From NCBI RefSeq assembly GCF_910596095.1, contig NC_056543.1:21290542-21354541 (forward strand): a stretch of 64,000 nucleotides of DNA, given 5' to 3'. A program made the translations under genes and the position numbers. Positions 16,986-31,859 of the stretch are shown here, one piece after another (the stretch's first letter is position 1; the number at the start of each line of letters is the position of its first letter). This stretch comes from Thunnus maccoyii. Lineage: Eukaryota; Chordata; Actinopteri; Scombriformes; Scombridae. The notes beneath the pieces are model-generated. The model worked only from the letters and a program-made list of their open reading frames with translations. It had not been told where the DNA came from and made no database searches.

Positions 16986-18323
16986 GTGAACTCGTGAACT
17001 GCAGAAGAACAATAGCAATGATTAGGTCAGATTAGTCCAATATTGAGCAATAGATCACAAGGCCAAGCACACAGTGATTTTTGTAAGATCTGTGTCATTC
17101 AGCAAACAGGAAATATAGGGAAAGTGACTTATTATTATTTGTAGCAAAATATATATTTTAGTAAAACAGTATTAAGGTGGGTGTGTGAACAATAACTTGC
17201 AGGAGCTTTAAGTGTTTGTTAAGAAAGCAGGAGCCTGCATGATGGGTGCTTGCCTGTCATCACACGAACAAATCCAAACCTAAACGACTTACAGGGCTTC
17301 CAACGCATCTCATCATAACCAACTGGAATAAACTGTTACTTTCATTGTTAATAAATCTATCAGTTGTTCCCCAATTAAAGCTCTAATAAATTACTCGAGA
17401 AAATGTAAAAATAAGTGACACATTTTCATCATAAGTCACCAAAGCTCGAGACAGTTTGGCCAGAAACAGAAACTCAATTATTAAATTTATACTGATACGA
17501 AACTGAAAATGATAAATGAGCAACTGATTATGAAAACAAGACCTGATACATTTTCTTGCACGTCACTGTTCAATTTATTGACCAGCCTTTCTCTCTCTTT
17601 GGTTACTTGTATGAAAATGTCTTTGAATGTTATGTTTTTGAATATTCAGAGTTGTTTAGTATTTTAATACCTTGTATTATCTATGAAATCATATGTTTAC
17701 CATCACATTTAACTTTTAAATCTCCTTAAATAGTTATTTTAAGACTATTTTAAAGGTTCAATACTGTAGTAAACAATTATAAAGGGAAATATAACTGAAT
17801 TTGATGTTTAATTTCAGATATTTTTTTGGACTATCGTTTTTTGTCCTGTTTTCACCTGAGAAGGTCTGACTAACACTTTGTTTCAGTACTATATACTACA
17901 TCAGTGTTATATGTGAGAATAACACAGAACTGGAGGCATGTTGCTTGAGTGCCAGTGTTGCCAACAGTTCCCATGAGACAGGCTGCCTACAGACTGAGCA
18001 GTCACATGCCAGTGATTGCCTCAGGTGGTGGGATCACGCGTTATCAGGTAAACACAGTTAGTAAGTCACAGCAAGGACACTTGATAAGGTTTTAAAATAC
18101 ATTATGGAAGAAGTCTGTTGAAGGAGGTATTACCAGCAGTGTCCCATATTGAGATATTGTAAGGTCCCCACTGTTTGAGGAAAAACGCCCCTCCGACGGT
18201 GCTGATCGTGTCTTTGAACTTCCTCTCCGTGTACCTGTGGAGCAGCGACGTCTTCCCCACGTTCATGTCTCCCAGCAGAACAACCTTGACGTCGGGCTTC
18301 TTCATCTTCGACTGCTCGGGCAT
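13429..18323 (-). CDS. rab20: Ras-related GTPase Rab20
   Basis: This small GTPase of endosomes and phagosomes is attached to membranes by C-terminal prenylation. Two exons: exon 1 18323-18134 (ATG complementary to 18321-18323) and exon 2 14030-13429, joined in phase 1 at the Gly of WDTAG. The product is 263 residues, compared with about 234 in human. Visible motifs are the P-loop GDMNVGKT (residues 18-25), switch II WDTAGREQF (60-68), guanine-specificity NKAD (119-122) and ETSAKT (SAK 210-212). The C-terminus is SACC, a double-Cys geranylgeranylation site. The position that is Gln in most Rabs is Arg (R65), a known Rab20 feature that argues against canonical Rab hydrolysis. An acidic, Pro/Ser-rich insert at about 132-170 accounts for the extra length. 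The gene converges on col4a2, as in human. Confidence 0.95.
14331..14507. mobile_element. Palindromic MITE with 47-bp inverted ends and TA flanks
   Basis: Left arm 14331-14377 begins ACTGTTTTAAAGGTGTTGAT. Right arm 14461-14507, read in reverse complement, begins ACTGTTTTAGAGGTGTTGAT. The arms match through GGAGGCTG with few differences. Taking TA as the duplicated target, the element core starts CTGTTTTA and ends TAAAACAG, each flanked by TA; this suits a Tc1/mariner-type MITE. No ORF is present, so it is nonautonomous. Confidence 0.7.
14595..14939 (-). mobile_element. hAT-like nonautonomous repeat, long copy
   Basis: On the minus strand this begins TAGAGCTGAAATAATTAGCC and continues through a middle part containing TTTTTGGGTTTTGGACTG. 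It ends near AACTGAATTGTTAGCTG. It is a diverged copy of a family I recognise as abundant in percomorph genomes, with TAGRGCTGCAAC ends. The left edge is approximate and no duplication could be fixed. Confidence 0.6.
16121..16420 (+). mobile_element. hAT-like nonautonomous repeat with 8-bp target duplication
   Basis: The element starts TAGAGCTGCAACAATTAATC and ends AATTGGTTGCAGA, so the ends are imperfect inverted repeats (CTGCAAC). It is flanked by GTCAACAG (16113-16120) and GTCAACAT (16421-16428), a 7-of-8 direct repeat of hAT size. Its middle shares TTTGGGTTGTGGACTG-like sequence with the copy at about 14595-14939, in opposite orientation. At 300 bp it cannot encode a transposase. Confidence 0.75.
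16952..16987. repeat. (GT)n microsatellite
   Basis: An almost uninterrupted GT run within the rab20 intron, broken by a single C at 16981. Confidence 0.95.
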
Positions 18324-18630
18324 GATGTTGGGTCTTGTCCCACCAACGGGGGAGCTCTTTTCTCTCTCTTTTTATCCTAGAAAATAAACGCGGTCTAGCT
18401 GGTAAAACTGCTCGTGAATTCCTTTTGGATACGTCATTTTATGCACCAAAGTTCATTGGTGACACCGTGGCTATCCAGCGTTTGTTCAGTCTCAAATCTG
18501 ATCCCAACTTTAAAAAGTAACAGAGGTGAAACAGGAAGTAGGTGAGGAACTTAAGAGGAGTGGAGCCTCTTTACCCTGAGTCCCACCTCTCAGGTTCGTC
18601 CAGTTACAGGCTCTGCACGGCTGCCGACGC
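18324..18630 (-). promoter_or_regulatory. Probable rab20 5' UTR and proximal promoter
   Basis: This is the sequence directly upstream of the rab20 ATG. No TATA box is evident. The segment is bounded upstream by the inverted repeat at 18640-18801, whose arms contain CCAAT/ATTGG boxes. The transcription start could not be placed from sequence alone. Confidence 0.35.
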
Positions 18631-18834: not shown

Positions 18835-21060
18835 AGTAAGTGACACATTTTCAGGCACAAGATATGAGCATATAGAGAGAAAAAGAAGTGATATTTTAAT
18901 TTATTTTGAAGACAACTCAATGGACAAAATGTTAGCTTTTTAATCCAACTGTTTAAAATTTTTGGCAAATTCCATATTCAACATAAAATGAAATGGACCA
19001 ATAAAAAACGAATTTTCATCTTAATTCTAATTGATATTAACTTTTATTACAGTTCTCTAGTCAAGCTGCAAAATAGAAAATCAACAAAGACCCTAACAAT
19101 ATTTCAAAAATATAAAATGATCAACTAATGTTCTTTAATTATTCATCTGTACCCCTTTATTCATTCATTCATTTTTGCCTCCTCCTTTGTATTATTTTGC
19201 TTTTACCAAATGTAAAAATTCTTTCACAGAATGTAAAAATTCCTTCACAGTCCCTCTAATGATTTTTATTTTTATTTTTATGTTTTATTTTATTTTTGTT
19301 ATAACCGATCCCCTGATATTTTGTTTCCTATTTTTGTTCTTTAAACATCCATGGTTTATATGTTACTATTGGTTTAGTTTGACTGTTGTCAATAAAGTTG
19401 GAGAAAAATAGAGAAAAAAGCTACAAAGGGGCAAGACAATAATAAATCAGATTACTATCAGAAGAATAATTGTTTTAGAAAGGGTGTTGTGGCATATAAA
19501 GTTTGTTTTTAGTTTGTCTATTCATCTTCAATATAAATGTGTAAAGAACTCTGTAAAAATCTGGCAGGCAAAATGTTTTGTCCCCTTTAAAGAATAAATA
19601 AATTAAATGCTAGAAACGTTCTGGTAGCATCTGAAAGGCATCTTTTACCAAAAAGGGTATTAGGTATATATAATATTAGTATATTAGTATTTGGGTTTGC
19701 TAAGTTTAATGAAAACGGCTTTTTTTTTCAACCTACGAGGCTAGACTCAGGGCAAAAAACAGACTCTATTTGTGTACACACGATTTTTCTTTTTGGACCG
19801 CCTCTATCCGCTTGACCAAACAGGTTATATGAGACACAGATTCTCTTTTCTTTGTCGAATAAAAACTTGATAGTGAGCGAATGTGAAGTCTCGACAATGG
19901 GGGCTCCTCAAACTGTGGAAATCTTTAAAGCAAACCAACTGTGCCCTCCGCTTGAAATTCATTCAGGTCATTATCAGAATAAAACAGAATTCAGGCAATA
20001 AAGTTTTAGTCTGTGGTTACTGAATGATTAAAATACTTTTTTATTCCTTGCAACTGCCATTTGTGTGCAGCTTTGTAGGTGTCAAATCGGCCCTTTAGGA
20101 TTTTAAACCAATTCTAGTTGGATCAACTCCAGTGCTGCCTTCAATTACCGTCGTAAATGTGCAACATCAGTTTAAAAGGGGACATATTCCTGCCAATCGG
20201 GAGGTCAAGACAGGACACTTGCTGCTGACAGTGTGCAGGGCTTCACCCATCTCTGCTGAGCAGAGGACAACAAATACAAAAGCAATACATTTAACAGTAG
20301 GCTAATTTGGCAATCATTTACATTATATGTTTTATTATAAATAGTTATTATTGTATGAAGTCATTTTACGGGAAATATAAAAGATATTTGCACAGGTGTC
20401 CGTCATCATTTAACATAAGAATAGGATAAGCTTTGCTCACTCGCATCAGTTTCATAAGCAGAATAATATATCAGAACAGCAGAATAATCTGCTTACAAAC
20501 AGAATTTTATGGATGATATGATTGTCAATATATTCAATTATTCTCATACCTTTACATCCACAAAGGGACAGTGTCACATTTACCAAAGTAATGTAGGCCC
20601 ACAGAAGAAAGAAATCTTTAACATACACTGAAAAATAAACCAAAGAAAACGTCTATGTGCTTACATTACTATTATTGTGTGTATATAATTATCATAGGGA
20701 CATTGATGGGGGACATCCCTGCTTTAATGTTGTTACAACCATGGATGTATTAGATTGCAACCCAGCATATAGCAGCCATAAGAAGAAATGCAGCTTTAAG
20801 GTACTTCCACTCAGCAGCTGTGACAGATATCAATTCCGTTCAATAAAAAGGGGCTTTCTTGACATTAGAACATACATTTACATTGCCAAGATAAGATAAT
20901 TTAAAACAAAATAGAAAAATGTAGACATTGCAGTTAAAAAATACAAATAGCTAAAAGTAAGTAAGAACTGTATAAACACATTTTTTTAAAAAGAAATATA
21001 TTTAAAGATATCCGTTCTATATGTATATATAGTTAGTATGTCTATATACAGAGCTCATCA
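18835..21060. other. Intergenic region between rab20 and naxd
   Basis: AT-rich sequence between two divergently transcribed genes. Near 19150-19410 a T-rich block ends in CAATAAAGTTGGAGAAAA, resembling the 3' tail of a retroposon. No coding sequence, tRNA or other RNA gene was recognised. Confidence 0.6.
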
Positions 21061-21347
21061 CAATGCAAATGTTCAGTGCCGGAACACGCAGCTGATTGAC
21101 AGTCTTCACGGTAGTTGTAGTCCATTGGCGAGATTTCAACCTACTCGGATATAGGAGTGTCCGAGGGGCCTACAAAGGCATCACATGCTGTTTTCTTCCT
21201 GCATTGCTGTCGGTCAGAGCGCCTCATGATCAGGATCATTTGTGCACAGTTCACAGCGTTGAAACGCAGCTCCAGTTTAGGTAAGAAGAACCAAGAACAA
21301 CACAACACTGCTGGAAAAGCTTCATGTGTCGGTGGCTACACTAAAGC
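21061..21347 (+). promoter_or_regulatory. Probable naxd promoter and 5' UTR
   Basis: This segment lies directly upstream of the naxd ATG at 21348. It contains an inverted CCAAT box (CCATTGG near 21121-21127). The overlapping minus-strand stretch GGACTACAACTACC loosely resembles a ZNF143-type site. No TATA box. Placement is by context. Confidence 0.35.
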
Positions 21348-24300
21348 ATGAGTGACAACAACATGCTGCAACAGATACAGACGCTCGCCTTTTGCTTTAT
21401 CACAGTTGCACTGTCGATTGTCGTCACATTGGTCTGTTTGAACGAGAGAGGTAAAGTGGAAGCAGCATTATAACAGTTGTTTTCATTACAACGCCCTGGT
21501 AGCTAAAGCTAAGCTAATGTCTCTGTAGTGTATGAAGTGAGAGCAGATGCGCAGGTTAAAGTGCCGGTGTGTGTAATGCTGGGTCTCTAGGACCCCGCAG
21601 ACACCCAGCATGGGCGGTGGAGCAGGCGGAGAAAGGTGAAGTTGCCCTCAAATGACTGATCAGAGGTCAGTTTTATCCCCCCTGTAAAATGTAAAGGTTG
21701 GGAAAAGGGCTGGGAAAGCCGATCTGCAGTCAGTTAATGTCTAAGTGCTAAGCTACGCATTTCGCCAACGACGTAAAGGATAAACATAGTCGGGCTAGGA
21801 TACAAAGAGTTGATCTGCACAAGCTACTGTAATGGTTCCTACATTTAAAACTGTACATATTGGCCCCAAAGTCCGAAACGGCCAGTTGACGTTGTTTGGG
21901 ATAGCGGCGCCGCTAGGAGCAAAGATCCAGACCAGACGTCCGTCATAATCCGCAGTGTCAACATCTCCCTTCAACTCCCTGTCGTGGCGTTTACTGTGTA
22001 AGGAAGCCTGCTTGGATCAGCTATGCAAGCAAACACAACGCGGGGCTTCCTGTGGTCGGACGTAGAGACGAGGACCTTGCTGAACATCTGGGGGGAGCAG
22101 GACATCCAGGTAGCGCTGGATGGAAACTTCCGAAACAGCTTCGTGTACCGCGACGTCTCCCGGAGGCTGGGGGCGATGGGGTTTGAACGGACCCCGGAAC
22201 AATGCAGGGTGCGGATCAAAAGCCTCAAGAGACAGTACTTGTTAGCGAAGGAAGGTAATCTGCGAAACAACGGGCAGTATCACAAGATCTGCAAGTTTTA
22301 TGACACCATGGAGAGGATTTTGAGCAACCGGCCCGCTCTTGACCCCCTGGAGTTAATGGACGGCGGCGCGGGAGGAGAGGAGGCCGGGGATGGCTTGGAA
22401 GAGGATGGAGAGGATGCTCAGGATGCATACTCTGAGAGCACAGGGGAATGTCCTTTTCCTGCAGAGACCGAGGTGAAGCTGGAGTACCCAACTGTTCCCA
22501 TCCCTATTCCGGTTAAAGTGACAGTGGGCAACAACAGTAAGTGCTCCCTACTTGTCCACATGCATTCATTCTTCTGTGTTGGGTGGATACAGTACGTTTA
22601 CTTGATTGCATTTGGTCAAAGATGCATCACATAATGTCTCACCCCTGTCCACTCCAGGCACACCAGTAAGACCAAATAACAGCAGCCAGTCGGCCAGTAG
22701 CTTGTCAGCCACGAGACCCAAACGGCCCAGGAAGCGGCGTGCCAACTTCCCCATGGAGAAGCTAATGGAGCAGTTCCTGGAGCAGAGCGCCCAGGCTGAG
22801 GACAGCTTCTACCGGATGGAGGAGCAGCGCTTGCAGGCGGAAGACCGCCGCAGAGAGGCCGAACACACCAGGGAGCTGCACATGCTTCAGATGCTCGGCC
22901 AGATGTTCTCCAGCATCTCTTCCGCCAGACCCAGCTCTGCATCCACCCCATCCAAGACCGTTCCCCCTGCCCGCGCTCCTGTGTTCTCCAGCACCTCCCC
23001 GTCATGCACACGCGGCCAATCCAGTCATCTGAGACGGTCTTCACCCCAGACAAACTGTTTCACCCAACAGAGTCAGCTATTGAACCCAGATCCCCAGGCA
23101 CTAGGTATTAGTTTCGGTGTCATGTGTGCAGCCACGAGGTGGAATGTGTGAAGAGAAAACGGAAAGTAGAGATGTATCAGCTGTGATATCAGAGCTCAGT
23201 GATGGAGCTGTCACTCAATTACGCTATTTCTGGGGTTAGGTGGTTCGTTACTTTATCTTTACTCAGATTAGATCATTGTCTCTGTTTTGGTTGTGTATTT
23301 GTTGTTTTGTTGCCAAACTTTTCTTCGTGTGTGTGTGTGAGAAAGGTAAAAAAAAAGATGTTAGACCCCGATTGAGGCCAAACAAGTATTACTCACTTTA
23401 AAACCTCACTTTTGTTTATTTCCTCAGTGTTTGAACGCTACCACAGCTTGGGGTCCACATCACACAGAGGCATGGACGATGACCTGCTCTCACTGGTAAA
23501 GAGCACAGTCCCTCCACTGACATCCAAAAAGCACAAGGGACAAGATGGACGCATTGGGATCATTGGAGGATGCCAAGAGTACGTTTCTGGTTTGGTTTTT
23601 CAGTATGAACCGTATTCGCCAAACAAGAGTTTGATTTCTCCTATGATTTGTTTCTCCACGGAACATTAGCCCCTAATTCTTTTCATCTTCACTCTTTTAA
23701 AGCTATACTGGAGCTCCATACTTTGCTGCCATCTCTGCACTGAAAGTGGTAAACACTCATTCTGACAGGTTTATCATTAATTTTCCTTCTTTTTTTTGGT
23801 TTCAGTTTTGGTACAGTGCTTTTTTCTCTTTTCCTGTCTCCAGGGAGCTGACTTGTCTCATGTGTTCTGCACCAAAGATGCTGCAACTGTAATCAAATCT
23901 TACAGCCCAGAGCTCATAGTTCATCCTGTTCTGTAAGTACAGATCCACTGGCACCATAATTAGCTGAATATCATTCTGCTGTAGGATTTTCATCACTGAC
24001 AACAATTCAAATATAAATAGAGGAATAATATGTATTTAGATCAAAAATATGTATTGCTATGCTCTCACAAATGCTATTATTTAGGAAATTAAGTTAAAAA
24101 AGACTGGAAACAATTTCTGTCTAACTCCTATTTATGATGTATTATAGATTCCTTCATAACACATTCAGAATTCATTTTAAGAGTTCATATAAACCTTCAC
24201 AATGCATTATGAAGTGTTATAACCACAGTCATAAGGCATTATAATGAGGATTACAATACTGTATAAGGTCAGATTGCCTGTAACTGGTCTACTCATTGTG

Positions 24301-27118
24301 CTTTATGTAGCCATAATGGATGGAGAGGGAGCTTATGGCTTGCTATGAAGCCTTTAAGATAGCTAGTCTGTTTCAGGTAAAGTAGGTTTGTGTCATTATG
24401 AGATATGTATTTATTGTTTTGATCAGGTAAGATGAAAAGGAAGTAATCCTTCTGCTATTTTAAAAAAAATTTTTTTTACAATAACAAAGGTCAAGACGTT
24501 AAAATTGGCTGTGGCATCTGTGATACAGTGTCAGTGAAAGGCAGAGCCAACCCGACGCATAAGCAAACTAAGTATCTGCTCAGGGCCCCCATCATGAGGG
24601 GGCCCCTGCGGGCTGAATCACTCTGTCTCAAAACGTGAGAAATCATGCTTGTAGGTACGCCCTTTAATCTCAGGTTTTTGTTCAGCACAAAGAAAACTCT
24701 CCACTTTCAGTAGCCGAATTAAAACAGCCTTCCAGTGTCATTCCGCATGGTGAAGGTCAAACCTTTACGTGAAGTAACGATGAGCGAAACACATTTTTGA
24801 GTGGAGGGGGACTTAAAGGCTATAAATGAGGGTGTCAGAATTGTCTTAAGAAAGTGACTGCATAGTTATAATTCCCTATGACTGTTGTTATGCATTATAA
24901 AGACTTAGAGTAACTTCATAGAAACATACCAAAACTGTATATTTTATAAGTAGCAGAGTGCAAATGCCAAAAATAACTCAGGTGGTATGTACTTACTCTG
25001 TTATGTACTTGATAACATACCATACAGTGATACACGGGCATATATACATCTTTGAACTACTTGTGTATGTGTGTGTGTGCACAGTTGCCATGGCAGCATT
25101 CAGAGGACTTTTTTATCGATGAAAACTGGTATTATTTATGCATAATGCATGAAGAAATATAGAAAGAGCATTTAGGAATAAGAGTATAACTAGGATAGGA
25201 CTTATAATAATTTGTGCATTCGAACACATCTAACACGTGCGTCTGTGTGTGTGTGTGTGTGTGCGTGCGTGTGTGCACGCGTGTTTTAAGGGACAGTCCT
25301 AATGCAGTGGAAGAGATAGAAAAATGGCTCCCAAGACTGCACGGCCTTGTGGTGGGACCAGGTCTAGGGAGAGAAGACGTCTTACTAAAAACAGCCAAGG
25401 CATGTGGAATACATTTATACTCCCTTGCACCCAAAACAGCCTCTTAGGCCAGCTGCTTGTGCATAACCACATCATGGAAATAAATACATATATTAACAGT
25501 TATTAGATAGAGTGCAGTGCTGAATTTAAGCTGCACAAGGTAATTCCACATGTTGGCAGCTCCTTATGACTGGTAAAAAATTCAACTTGAATTACCAGAA
25601 AACTTGAGTAAATGTGCCAAAAAAACTGAAGCAGATCTCATCCTGGTGATTCTCTGAAAGAGGCAAATGCACACTGATGCATGGGTAACACTGAATGTCC
25701 CTATGTTTAGACACATAGGGACACTAGAATATATTTTGGGCAAATAGGGTTGGAAGTGTAGCCCAACTTTTATTAGGCTGATGAAACAGGTATATGTGTA
25801 CATAAAGATTTTGTTGAGTGCGGCCTAAAAAGAACATTACAGTGTGCTTGCATTATACTTCACATTATGTCTAGATAACACTTTTTCTCTCTCTGATAGG
25901 AGGTGATAGAGAAGTCTAAAACAAGAGATATCCCTATAGTCATTGATGCGGTGAGTACTTGTCCTGATTAAATCAAGTTTCAGCTGTCAAACAGATAGGG
26001 TTTTATTTGCAAAGCCATGCAGAATCACTGAGAGAGAGAGTGTGTGTGTGTGGTTTGTTTGTTTTCAACAGGACGGATTATGGCTAGTTACGCAGCAACC
26101 ATCTGTTATTCAAGGGTACCAAAAGGGCATCCTTACACCCAACTTCATGGAGTTCACCCGACTGTATGAGGCGCTCGTGAGTCTCTCAGCACTGTTCACT
26201 TAGTCACCGATTGATAAAGAGCATGCTGCGTATACTTCTGTGTGGTTGTTAATGCATGTTTCATCCTGCCTGTGTGTTGCTGTCTCAGCACCATGAGCCA
26301 ATGGACAGCAGTGATCAGCAACGCAGCGTCATGCAGCTCAGTGTAGCTATGGGCAACCTCACTGTGGTGCTAAAAGGAGAACAGGATCTCATTACAGATG
26401 GCAGTAAAGGTCTGTATTAAACCCATATACTGTATAAACAACTTATAACTCATGCTTTTTCAGTTTGTCATTCTGCCTTTTCCATTGGTGTAATTCACAA
26501 CTCATATTTATTGAGGTAGCTTTGAGATTGTTGTAACTGTGCACAGATCTCATGCCTTGTCCTCTTGTTTTCAGTGATCTCGTGCAGTATTGAGGGCAGT
26601 GGGAGAAGATGTGGAGGACAGGGTGATCTTCTATCTGGATCTCTGGGAGTGCTGGCACACTGGGCCTATGCTGCCTCTGCAGCTGGACTGATCAGAAGGT
26701 GGAGACATTATTGGCTGTTTGTGCATAGTGTATTGCACCTTTTGTAAAGGACCACATTAGTGGTTTTAGATGTTTAAGCACATCACCTATAAAATGCACC
26801 AAACATTACATTATGTGAACCATTTTTCAAAACATTATGTAAGTGTTAAGATTGATTTCTTAACTTTGAGCACCCACTGGTTTGCATTCACTTCAGCATG
26901 TTATAAAAATCAACTTTATTATATGTGATTGTATGTTTCCTAATCCATCGCTTGTATCCTTTTCCAGTATGAATCCATCAATGGTCGCAGGATTTGGGGC
27001 CTGTTCTCTCACCAGACAGTGCAACAATCAAGCCTTCCAGCAGCATGGCAGGTCCACCACCACCTCGGACATGATCCAGGAGATCGGCTCAGCCTTCAAG
27101 AAGCTATTTGAAAGCTGA
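21348..27118 (+). CDS. naxd: ATP-dependent (S)-NAD(P)H-hydrate dehydratase
   Basis: This enzyme uses ATP to convert damaged S-NADHX/NADPHX back to NAD(P)H, working with the epimerase NAXE; family members act in mitochondria, ER and cytosol depending on the first exon. Ten exons: 21348-21450, 23428-23578, 23703-23748, 23844-23932, 25291-25399, 25900-25950, 26072-26176, 26289-26409, 26575-26698, 26968-27118; 349 residues, a normal family length. Exon 1 encodes a hydrophobic segment (residues 13-31), suggesting a signal or membrane anchor; Met6 is an alternative start. Then come [13 protein letters not shown] (70-82), [10 protein letters not shown] (150-159), VIDADGLW, and [10 protein letters not shown] with the catalytic Asp near 276. 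The C-terminus [15 protein letters not shown] is highly conserved. Exon 5 is followed by a GC splice donor. Intron 1 (1.98 kb) hosts a Myb/SANT ORF on the same strand. Confidence 0.95.
21840..22022 (+). promoter_or_regulatory. GC-rich, CpG-bearing segment before the Myb/SANT exons
   Basis: The segment contains GATAGCGGCGCCGCTAGG and several CpGs in an otherwise AT-rich intron. It lies directly upstream of the ATG at 22023. It may be a separate promoter inside naxd intron 1. No TATA box was seen. Confidence 0.35.
22023..23151 (+). CDS. Myb/SANT-like (trihelix) DNA-binding domain protein nested in naxd intron 1
   Basis: Two exons, 22023-22536 and 22658-23151, joined in phase 1 (A|GC), give 335 residues. 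Residues about 9-95 look like a Myb/SANT-like domain of the Myb_DNA-bind_4 type: [51 protein letters not shown]. An acidic linker (about 117-137), a basic NLS-like KRPRKRR (193-199) and a Gln/Glu/Arg-rich probable coiled coil (about 207-245) follow, with a Ser/Pro-rich tail. The layout suggests a nuclear DNA-binding protein, perhaps derived from a domesticated transposon-type factor; function is unknown to me. The last 15 residues, after the GT at 23105, look non-conserved. No AATAAA or ATTAAA occurs between 23152 and the naxd exon at 23428. An alternative reading is that the second exon ends at 23104 and splices in phase into naxd exon 2 (see findings). Confidence 0.75.
24100..24680. repeat. 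Diverged dispersed repeats in naxd intron 4
   Basis: At 24150-24270 there is a run of near-palindromic phrases (CATAACACATTC, CACAATGCATTATGAAG, CATAAGGCATTATAATGAGG) of a kind widespread in fish genomes. At about 24580-24615 GGGCCCCCATCATGAGGGGG is a short palindrome inside another possible repeat remnant. Families were not identified. Confidence 0.35.
25243..25275. repeat. (GT)n microsatellite abutting naxd exon 5
   Basis: A GT run with two GC interruptions ends about 15 bases before the naxd exon 5 start at 25291. It takes the place normally held by a polypyrimidine tract; only a short GTTTTAAG precedes the exon. Confidence 0.9.
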
Positions 27119-27521: not shown

Positions 27522-27527
27522 AATAAA
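27522..27527 (+). terminator. Candidate poly(A) signal of naxd
   Basis: AATAAA lies about 400 bases after the naxd stop. It is the first canonical signal seen downstream. Assignment is by position. Confidence 0.5.
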
Positions 27528-29342: not shown

Positions 29343-31859
29343 ATGTTGAACCCGACCAATGGCGACCCAGGCCACGTTGTCGTGAATTATGTGGAGGAGT
29401 ATTTGGACCTGGTGGAATCCCTACCTTTTGATTTGCAGAGGAGTGTGTCTCTCATGAAGGAAATTGATGCCAAGTATCAAGGTAAAGACACACTTCTGTC
29501 TTTCTTCCTACTTCAATCAAATATATATATTTACATATAACTTTATTTCCTAGTGACATTTTAGTTTGCTTAGTTTATTTCTTGTTCTTAAGAGAAACTG
29601 ACAAGTAGATGTTATTTCTTAGGAAGTTACTGAATATCACAACACACTTGCAAAAGGCAGAGTGTTTACACTAAGAACATTTTGCAAATACCTTTAAGTG
29701 TGTTCTAGAGAGTGTTTTATAGTGATTAACAGGCAAGGTCAGCAATGTAATGTTGGTCTTCCTGTGTGGTTGTGCATCACATGTGAGCTTACAGTTAAGG
29801 AGATATGGATACTGCACCTTCATATACATGAATATTTAATCAACAGCAGGTTTTAAATTCCAAAAAGCAGCACTCTTGTAGCTACTAATTACTTAAGCAA
29901 GTGCTTAACAACTGAACACTTAACAAATGATATAGTACTCTGTATACATGCAGCTGCTATGAGCCATTACAGAGAGTAATATCTGAGCCCACTGTTAGGC
30001 TCTTAACCTCTCTCTGTAGATCTAGTATGACAGTTACCACGTTGGTCTCATAACAGACTTATTACCAGCCAGTAGTCACAGTAGTCCCATCTCCTGTAAT
30101 AACTACCAACCGCAAGACTTGCTTGATCTATATACAGGCTGCACCTTTGATGAGACTAAAGACACATTTTTCTGCAGGTCCATGTTGGCAGGCTTTACTA
30201 AACCTCACAAATTTAACCTTAACTAAGTGCATATAAATTGACATCTCTGAATCCAACAAAAGCTAACTTATATCAGTAAGATTGCAATTGACATTCTGTG
30301 TTGTCATCCTGCGCCTCCTAGTGCAATTTGTTCACTCTACTAAAGTTTCAGAATATTTTCACATTATAGACACATCATACAGTCAAGACATTATCCATTA
30401 TGACATGTAGTAAGATTAAAATGTACATTTATTCACCTGTGTGTACCTTTTTAGAGAATATTTCTGATTACCTTCTTCTTGGGCAGATGTTTTGAAGGAG
30501 CTTGATGACGCTTATGAACGGTATCGCAAGGAATCCGATTCACTTCAGAGGCGCAAGCTTCAGTTATCCATCCAGAGGGCACTGATCCGCAGTCAAGAGC
30601 TTGGAGATGAGAAGATCCAGATTGCAGGTCAAATGGTAAGTAAAGAACATCCTGCAGCTGCTCAGTGGCAAAATTCCAGGTCTGAATGTGTTTAGCTGTT
30701 GGTGTAGAGAGCGGTGATTTCCCGGAACATATTTGCTCACCAAATCTAAACTGGAGTAGTTTAAAAAAAAAAAAAAAAAAAAGAAAAGTTTATATAGGCA
30801 TGCTAAAAGGCCTTTTTGTACTGGGGTTTATTAGGCTTTCCATTTTGCATTTTCCATTTGAATATCACTGAAACCTTTACCAGGAAAAACCTATTTGAAC
30901 ATTTGCAGGACCCCAGTAGTAAACACTGAATCAGCCTATTATAGCTACACACTAGAGGGTCACTAAGAACATAACAGCATATTTAACCTTCCCCTTTGAC
31001 ATATATTTGGTTTGTCAAAGTCTAGTGATTGTTACTGCACCCCTCAGCTCGTTGCATAATGTGAAATGTTACAACATACAACTGGTTTAACAAGTAGCAT
31101 GCCTCAAGTAATTGAAGCCCTACGGCCACACTAAATAAGTTTCAAGTATTTAGTCATCCACATATACTCAAACAGCAGACAGACCTTTTTATAACAAAAT
31201 ATGAACGTTCTTTGTTTCAGGTGGAGTTGGTTGAGAACCGAACGCGTCAGATAGATTGGCATTCAGAACTTCTCCTTTCCTCTCAAGAACTCCCAGAGAG
31301 CCATGTTCCCATAGCAACATCTATGGCAACCACCGCAGCATCCATGATGTCGTCATCATCATCATCGGCCACCATAACTCCAGGCAAAACCGGCCACCAT
31401 GACAAGAAGCGCGATGAGGTCACCCCAGGCTCAGGCGGTGGAGACAAGGGTGGAGGGAAACGCTCGAGACGACAGAAAAACGGGGAAAACAGAGAAAGTT
31501 ACGGGGGTCTGGATCCAGCCGACGATGTCGGAGTGGGGGCCTCTCGGGAAAAGAGGGCCAAAACGTCTTCTAAGAAGAAGAAAAGGTCAAAAGGAAAGTC
31601 TGAGAGAGAAGTGTCACCGCCAGACCTGCCCATTGACCCAGATGAGCCAACGTACTGTCTGTGCGAGCAGGTGTCCTATGGCGAGATGATTGGCTGTGAT
31701 AATGATGAATGTCCTATTGAGTGGTTTCATTTCTCCTGTGTCGGGCTTCATCATAAGCCCAAGGGAAAGTGGTTTTGCCCCAAGTGTAGGGGAGAGAATG
31801 AGAAGACCATGGACAAGGCCTTGGAGAGGGCTAAGAAGGAGAGGGCATACAACAGGTAG
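29343..31859 (+). CDS. ing1: Inhibitor of growth protein 1 (p33ING1b-like)
   Basis: This chromatin reader binds H3K4me3 through its PHD finger and is a subunit of Sin3/HDAC complexes. Three coding exons: 29343-29481, 30487-30635 and 31221-31859; 308 residues (human p33ING1b has 279). The N-terminal ING domain includes [20 protein letters not shown] and continues in exon 2 with [16 protein letters not shown]. Exon 3 starts at [10 protein letters not shown], passes through a Ser/Met/Thr-rich linker that largely explains the extra length, and then a basic NLS region (KKKKRSKGK). The PHD finger is C4HC3: C242, C244, C255, C260, H266, C269, C282, C285. It is followed by the polybasic tail [17 protein letters not shown]1 rather than ING2 is chosen from the AYNR ending and from synteny. 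The start is the ATG before [20 protein letters not shown]; an upstream in-frame ATG at 29289 precedes the likely acceptor and is not used here. Confidence 0.95.

Follow-up and report, generated by a model that had tools for sequence, protein, structure and literature searches.

Gene content of the naxd locus

The window analysed here, a stretch of 64,000 nucleotides of Thunnus maccoyii (C11:21290542-21354541, in a genome of 782 Mb), harbours the naxd gene on the + strand. Its common exons 2 to 10, which span 23428-27116 and whose bounds were placed manually according to reading frame and splice signals (Table 1), code for an open protein with the domain expected of NAXD (Carb_kinase, i.e. NAD(P)H-hydrate dehydratase; profile match, E=1.5e-54). 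The intron after exon 5 appears to be of the GC-AG type (AAG/GCATGT at 25400-25401). On either side of naxd, exons at 18102-18371 (- strand) encode a Ras-type GTPase domain and exons at 31116-31859 (+ strand) a PHD finger, the latter with a match of 21.4 bits, below the Pfam cut-off of 24. From vertebrate gene order, we take these neighbours to be rab20 and ing1, respectively.

Two ordinary first exons, E1a and E1b, precede the common exons. Judged by eye, the E1a peptide, which is basic and devoid of acidic residues, resembles a mitochondrial targeting sequence, and the N-terminus encoded by E1b resembles an ER signal; an in-frame ATG at 21348, upstream of the E1b start, adds five residues to the latter. 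The initial annotation of this DNA had described the hydrophobic first exon but had overlooked E1a. According to passages on human NAXD in PMC12861718 (section 3.1) and PMC11715087, cytosolic, mitochondrial and ER forms of the human enzyme arise from alternative first exons. The tuna locus follows the same plan, with several first exons feeding the common exon 2 in phase 1 and, by eye, both a mitochondrial-like and an ER-like one among them. Unlike the human gene as described there, it has a third candidate first exon, which encodes a DNA-binding domain.

Table 1. Features of naxd and of the gene nested in its first intron. Positions are those of the window; slashes in donor sites mark the exon-intron border.
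Feature	Position	Strand	Description
naxd first exon E1a	21226..21280	+	MIRIICAQFTALKRSSSL; phase-1 donor TAG/GTAAGA
naxd first exon E1b	21363..21450	+	Hydrophobic N-terminus; phase-1 donor GAG/GTAAAG
Nested exon 1 (Myb exon)	22023..22536	+	Myb/SANT-like (trihelix-type) domain, acidic tail; phase-1 donor ACA/GTAAGT at 22537
Nested exon 2 (coil exon)	22658..23151	+	Phase-1 entry; PKRPRKRR basic stretch, helical coil, S/P-rich tail
Donor CTAG/GTATTA of the initial annotation	23105..23106	+	Last exonic base 23104; phase 1; PWM score -2.54
Donor-like AAG/GTAAAA	23346..23347	+	3' of the nested stop; PWM score 2.01; possible splicing to 23428
naxd exon 2, first common exon	23428..23578	+	Phase-1 entry, VFERYHSLG...
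naxd exons 3-5	23703-23748, 23844-23932, 25291-25399	+	
naxd exons 6-8	25900-25950, 26072-26176, 26289-26409	+	
naxd exons 9-10	26575-26698, 26968-27116	+	AATAAA at 27522

A two-exon Myb/SANT gene within naxd intron 1

Two exons in naxd intron 1, on the same strand as naxd, together form an open reading frame of 335 residues that ends with a TGA at 23149-23151. Residues 11-99 of the product match positions 4-89 of the 89-position Pfam profile Myb_DNA-bind_4 (PF13837; E=7.2e-19; 68.4 bits versus a cut-off of 27), and thus cover the whole domain. The initial annotation had reported same-strand Myb/SANT exons with their own stop at this place, and the intact frame with its full-length domain match, beyond chance, bears it out on both counts. 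It had also mentioned an NLS and a coiled coil; a basic stretch and a helical stretch are indeed found in nested exon 2, these two names being labels given by eye. Among solved chains, the trihelix factor GT-1 comes closest by sequence, with a weak match (E=0.0084). A single-sequence model of a 165-aa piece of the Myb exon product, of low confidence (mean pLDDT 48.7), places helices at residues 7-26, 34-45, 52-73 and 80-95; a fold search of the PDB with this low-confidence model returned nothing at E<=0.001.

In 300-bp windows, the observed/expected ratio of CpG is 0.76-0.96 across 21700..22449, over the start of the Myb exon, compared with 0.29 (median) and 0.70 (90th percentile) for the window as a whole. 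Ratios of 0.54-0.75 were found over E1a and E1b, in continuity with that CpG-rich stretch. The stretch suggests a possible promoter, from which transcription would start at the Myb exon. Splicing of E1a or E1b into the nested frame was considered and rejected: the acceptor-like sites of 21470-22022 reach at most 0.67 pyrimidines, the fractions at the nested acceptor and the naxd exon-2 acceptor being 0.78 and 0.83, respectively. In that same comparison, in which exons 3-5 were placed one base off, the acceptor of naxd exon 5 had a fraction of 0.61.

Neither AATAAA nor ATTAAA occurs in 23105-23440, in agreement with the initial annotation, which had found neither signal between the nested stop and naxd exon 2. 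This absence is not unusual by itself, as only about 0.59 such signals are expected per 276 nt of the + strand, and their lack is thus expected about half the time. Among 14 other hexamers tried in the same interval, only AAAAAG (23352) and TTTAAA (23397) are present, and the next canonical signals, ATTAAA at 24718 and AATAAA at 25479, both lie within later naxd introns. An independent 3' end of the nested gene would therefore require a non-canonical poly(A) site; GT-rich sequence that might assist such a site is present at 23290-23340.

Kinship with Harbinger elements

The gene is single-copy: a search of the genome with the Myb exon as DNA gave one match, as did a search with the coil exon as protein. 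At the protein level, the Myb exon has 42 relatives elsewhere in the genome at E<=0.01, the best-scoring of which is 38% identical. Six of them, including both top two, lie 1.1-2.4 kb from a match to PF13359, the Harbinger transposase, and all six are convergent with it; only 0.04 neighbours would be expected within 2.5 kb, given the 150 transposase matches listed out of 154. This pairing establishes the kinship of the nested Myb exon with Harbinger-associated Myb genes. For the other 36 relatives, none of the 150 listed matches (of 154) lies within 10 kb. Harbinger-like units in which a Myb-like gene converges with a PF13359 transposase at a distance of 2.0-2.4 kb were seen at three loci, L023 (G000:C8:300500-308200), L004 and L010, and the Myb matches of the last two contain stops. 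Dense tandem Myb/SANT groups are found at G000:C23:12712414-12716883 and 12994807-13002089, comprising 4 and 6 of the 42 relatives; both are devoid of listed transposase matches (150 of 154) within 10 kb.

The best relative, L023, may also share aspects of the exon layout. A phase-1 donor candidate follows its Myb exon, and a basic-helical stretch further on, preceded by an acceptor-like CTACAG, would have a phase-1 entry; an AATAAA lies 566 nt past the stop of this second exon. Aligned with the nested coil exon, the basic-helical segment of L023, which was picked by eye, scores 51, versus 25.7 +/- 4.6 for shuffled sequences (1/1000 as high), and it is the best of the 47 ORFs of L023 in that respect. 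Genome-wide, tblastn returned no relative of the coil exon; in L003-L021 there was none at E<=1, and the matches in L023-L026 are chance-like (best E 0.74). The coil exon may be akin to Harbinger units, on the strength of one relative and a segment chosen by eye.

Donor candidates after the Myb exon were found in 12 of the 21 rows compared for the relatives. Eight of these 12 include a phase-1 candidate; in the other four the candidates are in phase 2 and would cut the domain. The phase that fits naxd is thus probably ancestral. Because phase-1 donor candidates are common among the relatives, the in-frame fit is no evidence of selection for a fusion, and would rather represent a pre-adaptation.

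Teleost Harbinger elements are described in PMC9179366 as coding for a Myb/SANT-like tri-helix protein in their second ORF. The nested gene resembles that protein by its domain and by its relatives that neighbour convergent PF13359 transposases, and it may resemble the one unit L023 by its basic-helical exon with a phase-1 entry. It differs from such elements in that its Myb exon is intact, single at the DNA level and located in a host intron. A further difference may be the lack of mobile parts: a search of the window with one 109-aa transposase piece gave nothing (best E 0.53), and no convincing terminal repeats were found in 21000-24000. On C11, the nearest of the listed PF13359 matches (150 of 154) is about 5.0 Mb away. 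Pattern searches for relatives of the Myb exon yielded 4 matches in viral contigs and 54 in bacterial and archaeal genomes, none of which was confirmed. A copy that is intact, single and strongly diverged, and in which no mobile parts are visible, is consistent with domestication, and the nested gene has the appearance of a Harbinger Myb-like gene that was domesticated.

Possible splice routes from the nested exons into naxd

The initial annotation had proposed that the two nested exons may be spliced into naxd by a donor located 15 residues before the nested stop, making a chimeric protein. Its geometry was confirmed, as the donor after 23104 is in phase 1, exon 2 is entered in phase 1, and joining 23104 to 23428 yields an open frame of 635 aa. 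The strength of the donor was not. With a PWM for vertebrate donors, it scores below all 10 other GT donors scored in the naxd and nested gene models (the lowest at -0.64), and 25.6% of all GTs of the window equal or exceed its score, which is no better than chance; among donors drawn from this PWM, 2.3% score as low. Nor is its phase surprising, since nested exon 2 contains 24 GTs, 9 of which are in phase 1.

A better candidate, overlooked in the initial annotation, is the normal donor of the Myb exon at 22537. It scores 2.35, while the naxd GT donors scored extend from -0.64 to 6.09, and shares its phase with the donors of both ordinary naxd first exons. Joining 22536 to 23428 yields 486 open residues that comprise the Myb domain, its acidic tail, MFERYHSLG and the whole enzyme core. 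Over 20300-23410, unspliced ATG ORFs that reach a phase-1 donor with a score above -1 and yield more than 50 residues occur only in the Myb exon (171 aa at donor 22537 and 77 aa at a donor at 22255). The locus is thus compatible in sequence with a DNA-binding/NAXD chimera, and the 22536-23428 junction is more likely to produce one than the 23104-23428 junction first put forward. The chimera had also been described as nuclear-targeted. The 635-aa form does retain the basic stretch, which nested exon 2 encodes, but the 486-aa form is devoid of it, so that nuclear targeting need not follow if donor 22537 is used.

Zebrafish provides indirect support. Its RefSeq Naxd isoforms 1 (NP_001315079.1) and 2 (NP_001103590.1) have long N-terminal extensions which, according to section 3.1 of PMC12861718 (2026), are not conserved with human and have no predicted targeting peptides. 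The words Myb, SANT and DNA-binding do not occur in that paper. In the tuna, within 20300-23410, such an extension could come from the Myb exon alone, which suggests a chimera without proving it. If the zebrafish locus is laid out like that of the tuna, these long isoforms would be the chimera.

We propose, with a probability of roughly 0.45, that naxd intron 1 contains a two-exon domesticated Harbinger-type Myb-like gene with a CpG-rich start, that nested transcripts often run on to the 3' end of naxd, and that the phase-1 donor at 22536 then joins naxd exon 2 to give a 486-aa Myb/SANT-NAD(P)HX dehydratase. The Myb exon would thereby act as a third naxd first exon, next to the mitochondrial-like and ER-like ones. 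When transcription ends within the intron, nested exon 2 would be used and a separate 335-aa DNA-binding protein made. Skipping of nested exon 2 would be natural, as none of the in-phase donors ahead of its stop is good and a classical poly(A) signal is likewise missing before naxd exon 2. The exons, frames, domains, phases and Harbinger kinship are thus shown by the sequence, and the promoter, the transcript ends, the choice of splice route and the protein itself are inferred. The intact 335-aa frame with its full domain, the donor at 22537, the open 486-aa product, the lack of AATAAA and ATTAAA before exon 2, the CpG peak, the Myb exon as sole source of a long phase-1 ORF, the zebrafish isoforms and the Harbinger kinship all count for the 486-aa chimera; against it counts that nested exon 2 is intact and has a stop of its own, which speaks for use of the stand-alone protein. 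Taking both junctions together, a Myb/NAXD chimera of some kind has somewhat better than even odds.

The main rival, which we deem less probable, is that the nested gene stands alone: it would code for a domesticated Harbinger Myb-like protein, be transcribed from a promoter of its own and end at a non-canonical poly(A) site beyond 23151, any joining to naxd being noise. The complete two-exon frame and a plan of Myb domain plus basic-helical part that may resemble that of L023 are what such a gene would display, and the CpG peak at the start of the Myb exon and the lack of a good phase-1 donor within nested exon 2 agree with it. However, L023 has an AATAAA, whereas the tuna gene has only two weak variants before naxd exon 2, and a stand-alone gene leaves the long N-terminal extensions of the zebrafish isoforms, as reported in the paper cited above, unexplained. 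The 635-aa product, with both nested exons joined to naxd exon 2, appears unlikely: it has an open frame and a matching phase and keeps the basic stretch and the coil, and one may speculate that the two extended zebrafish isoforms, as described there, differ by the presence of the coil exon, but its donor is weak and the phase match unremarkable. The least probable arrangement is read-through with no fusion, in which nested exon 2 would extend to 23345 and be spliced to 23428 by the donor-like site at 23346. That site scores 2.01 and the frame ends after residue 335, at a nested stop upstream of the naxd exons, so the nested ORF would precede naxd in one mRNA that is probably a target of nonsense-mediated decay or a regulator of the naxd level. 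For this route, an intron of 82 nt would have to be spliced, and a stop lying 194 nt before a junction would have to be tolerated.

More broadly, it is possible, at slightly less than even odds, that one or more naxd first exons of teleosts derive from a captured Harbinger Myb-like gene and that these fish make a chromatin- or DNA-binding dehydratase that corresponds to zebrafish isoforms 1 and 2. A transposon-type DNA-binding domain on a metabolite-repair enzyme would then place NAD(P)HX repair at the chromatin or endow a metabolic enzyme with a regulatory role. Zebrafish naxd knockouts in the common exons would remove the chimera together with the ordinary enzyme, with consequences for disease models, and isoforms 1 and 2 would be a chimera that went unrecognised in the published models of NADHX-repair deficiency. 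If there is no more than a nested gene, the locus would still hold a domesticated Harbinger Myb-like gene, probably with an expression linked to that of naxd.

Our literature search retrieved no paper that names a Myb/SANT-NAXD fusion, those combining NAXD and SANT being off-topic by their titles. Fusions between host genes and transposon domains do exist, including TSNARE1 and host-transposase fusions. The putative tuna chimera resembles them in that a transposon DNA-binding domain is joined in frame to a host domain, and differs in that the partner would be a metabolite-repair enzyme and that the fusion is predicted from sequence. For genes nested in host introns, PMC3192792 reports exonization and cryptic polyadenylation. 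The tuna gene shares with those described there its location inside a host intron; unlike them, it would fit in frame with the host enzyme.
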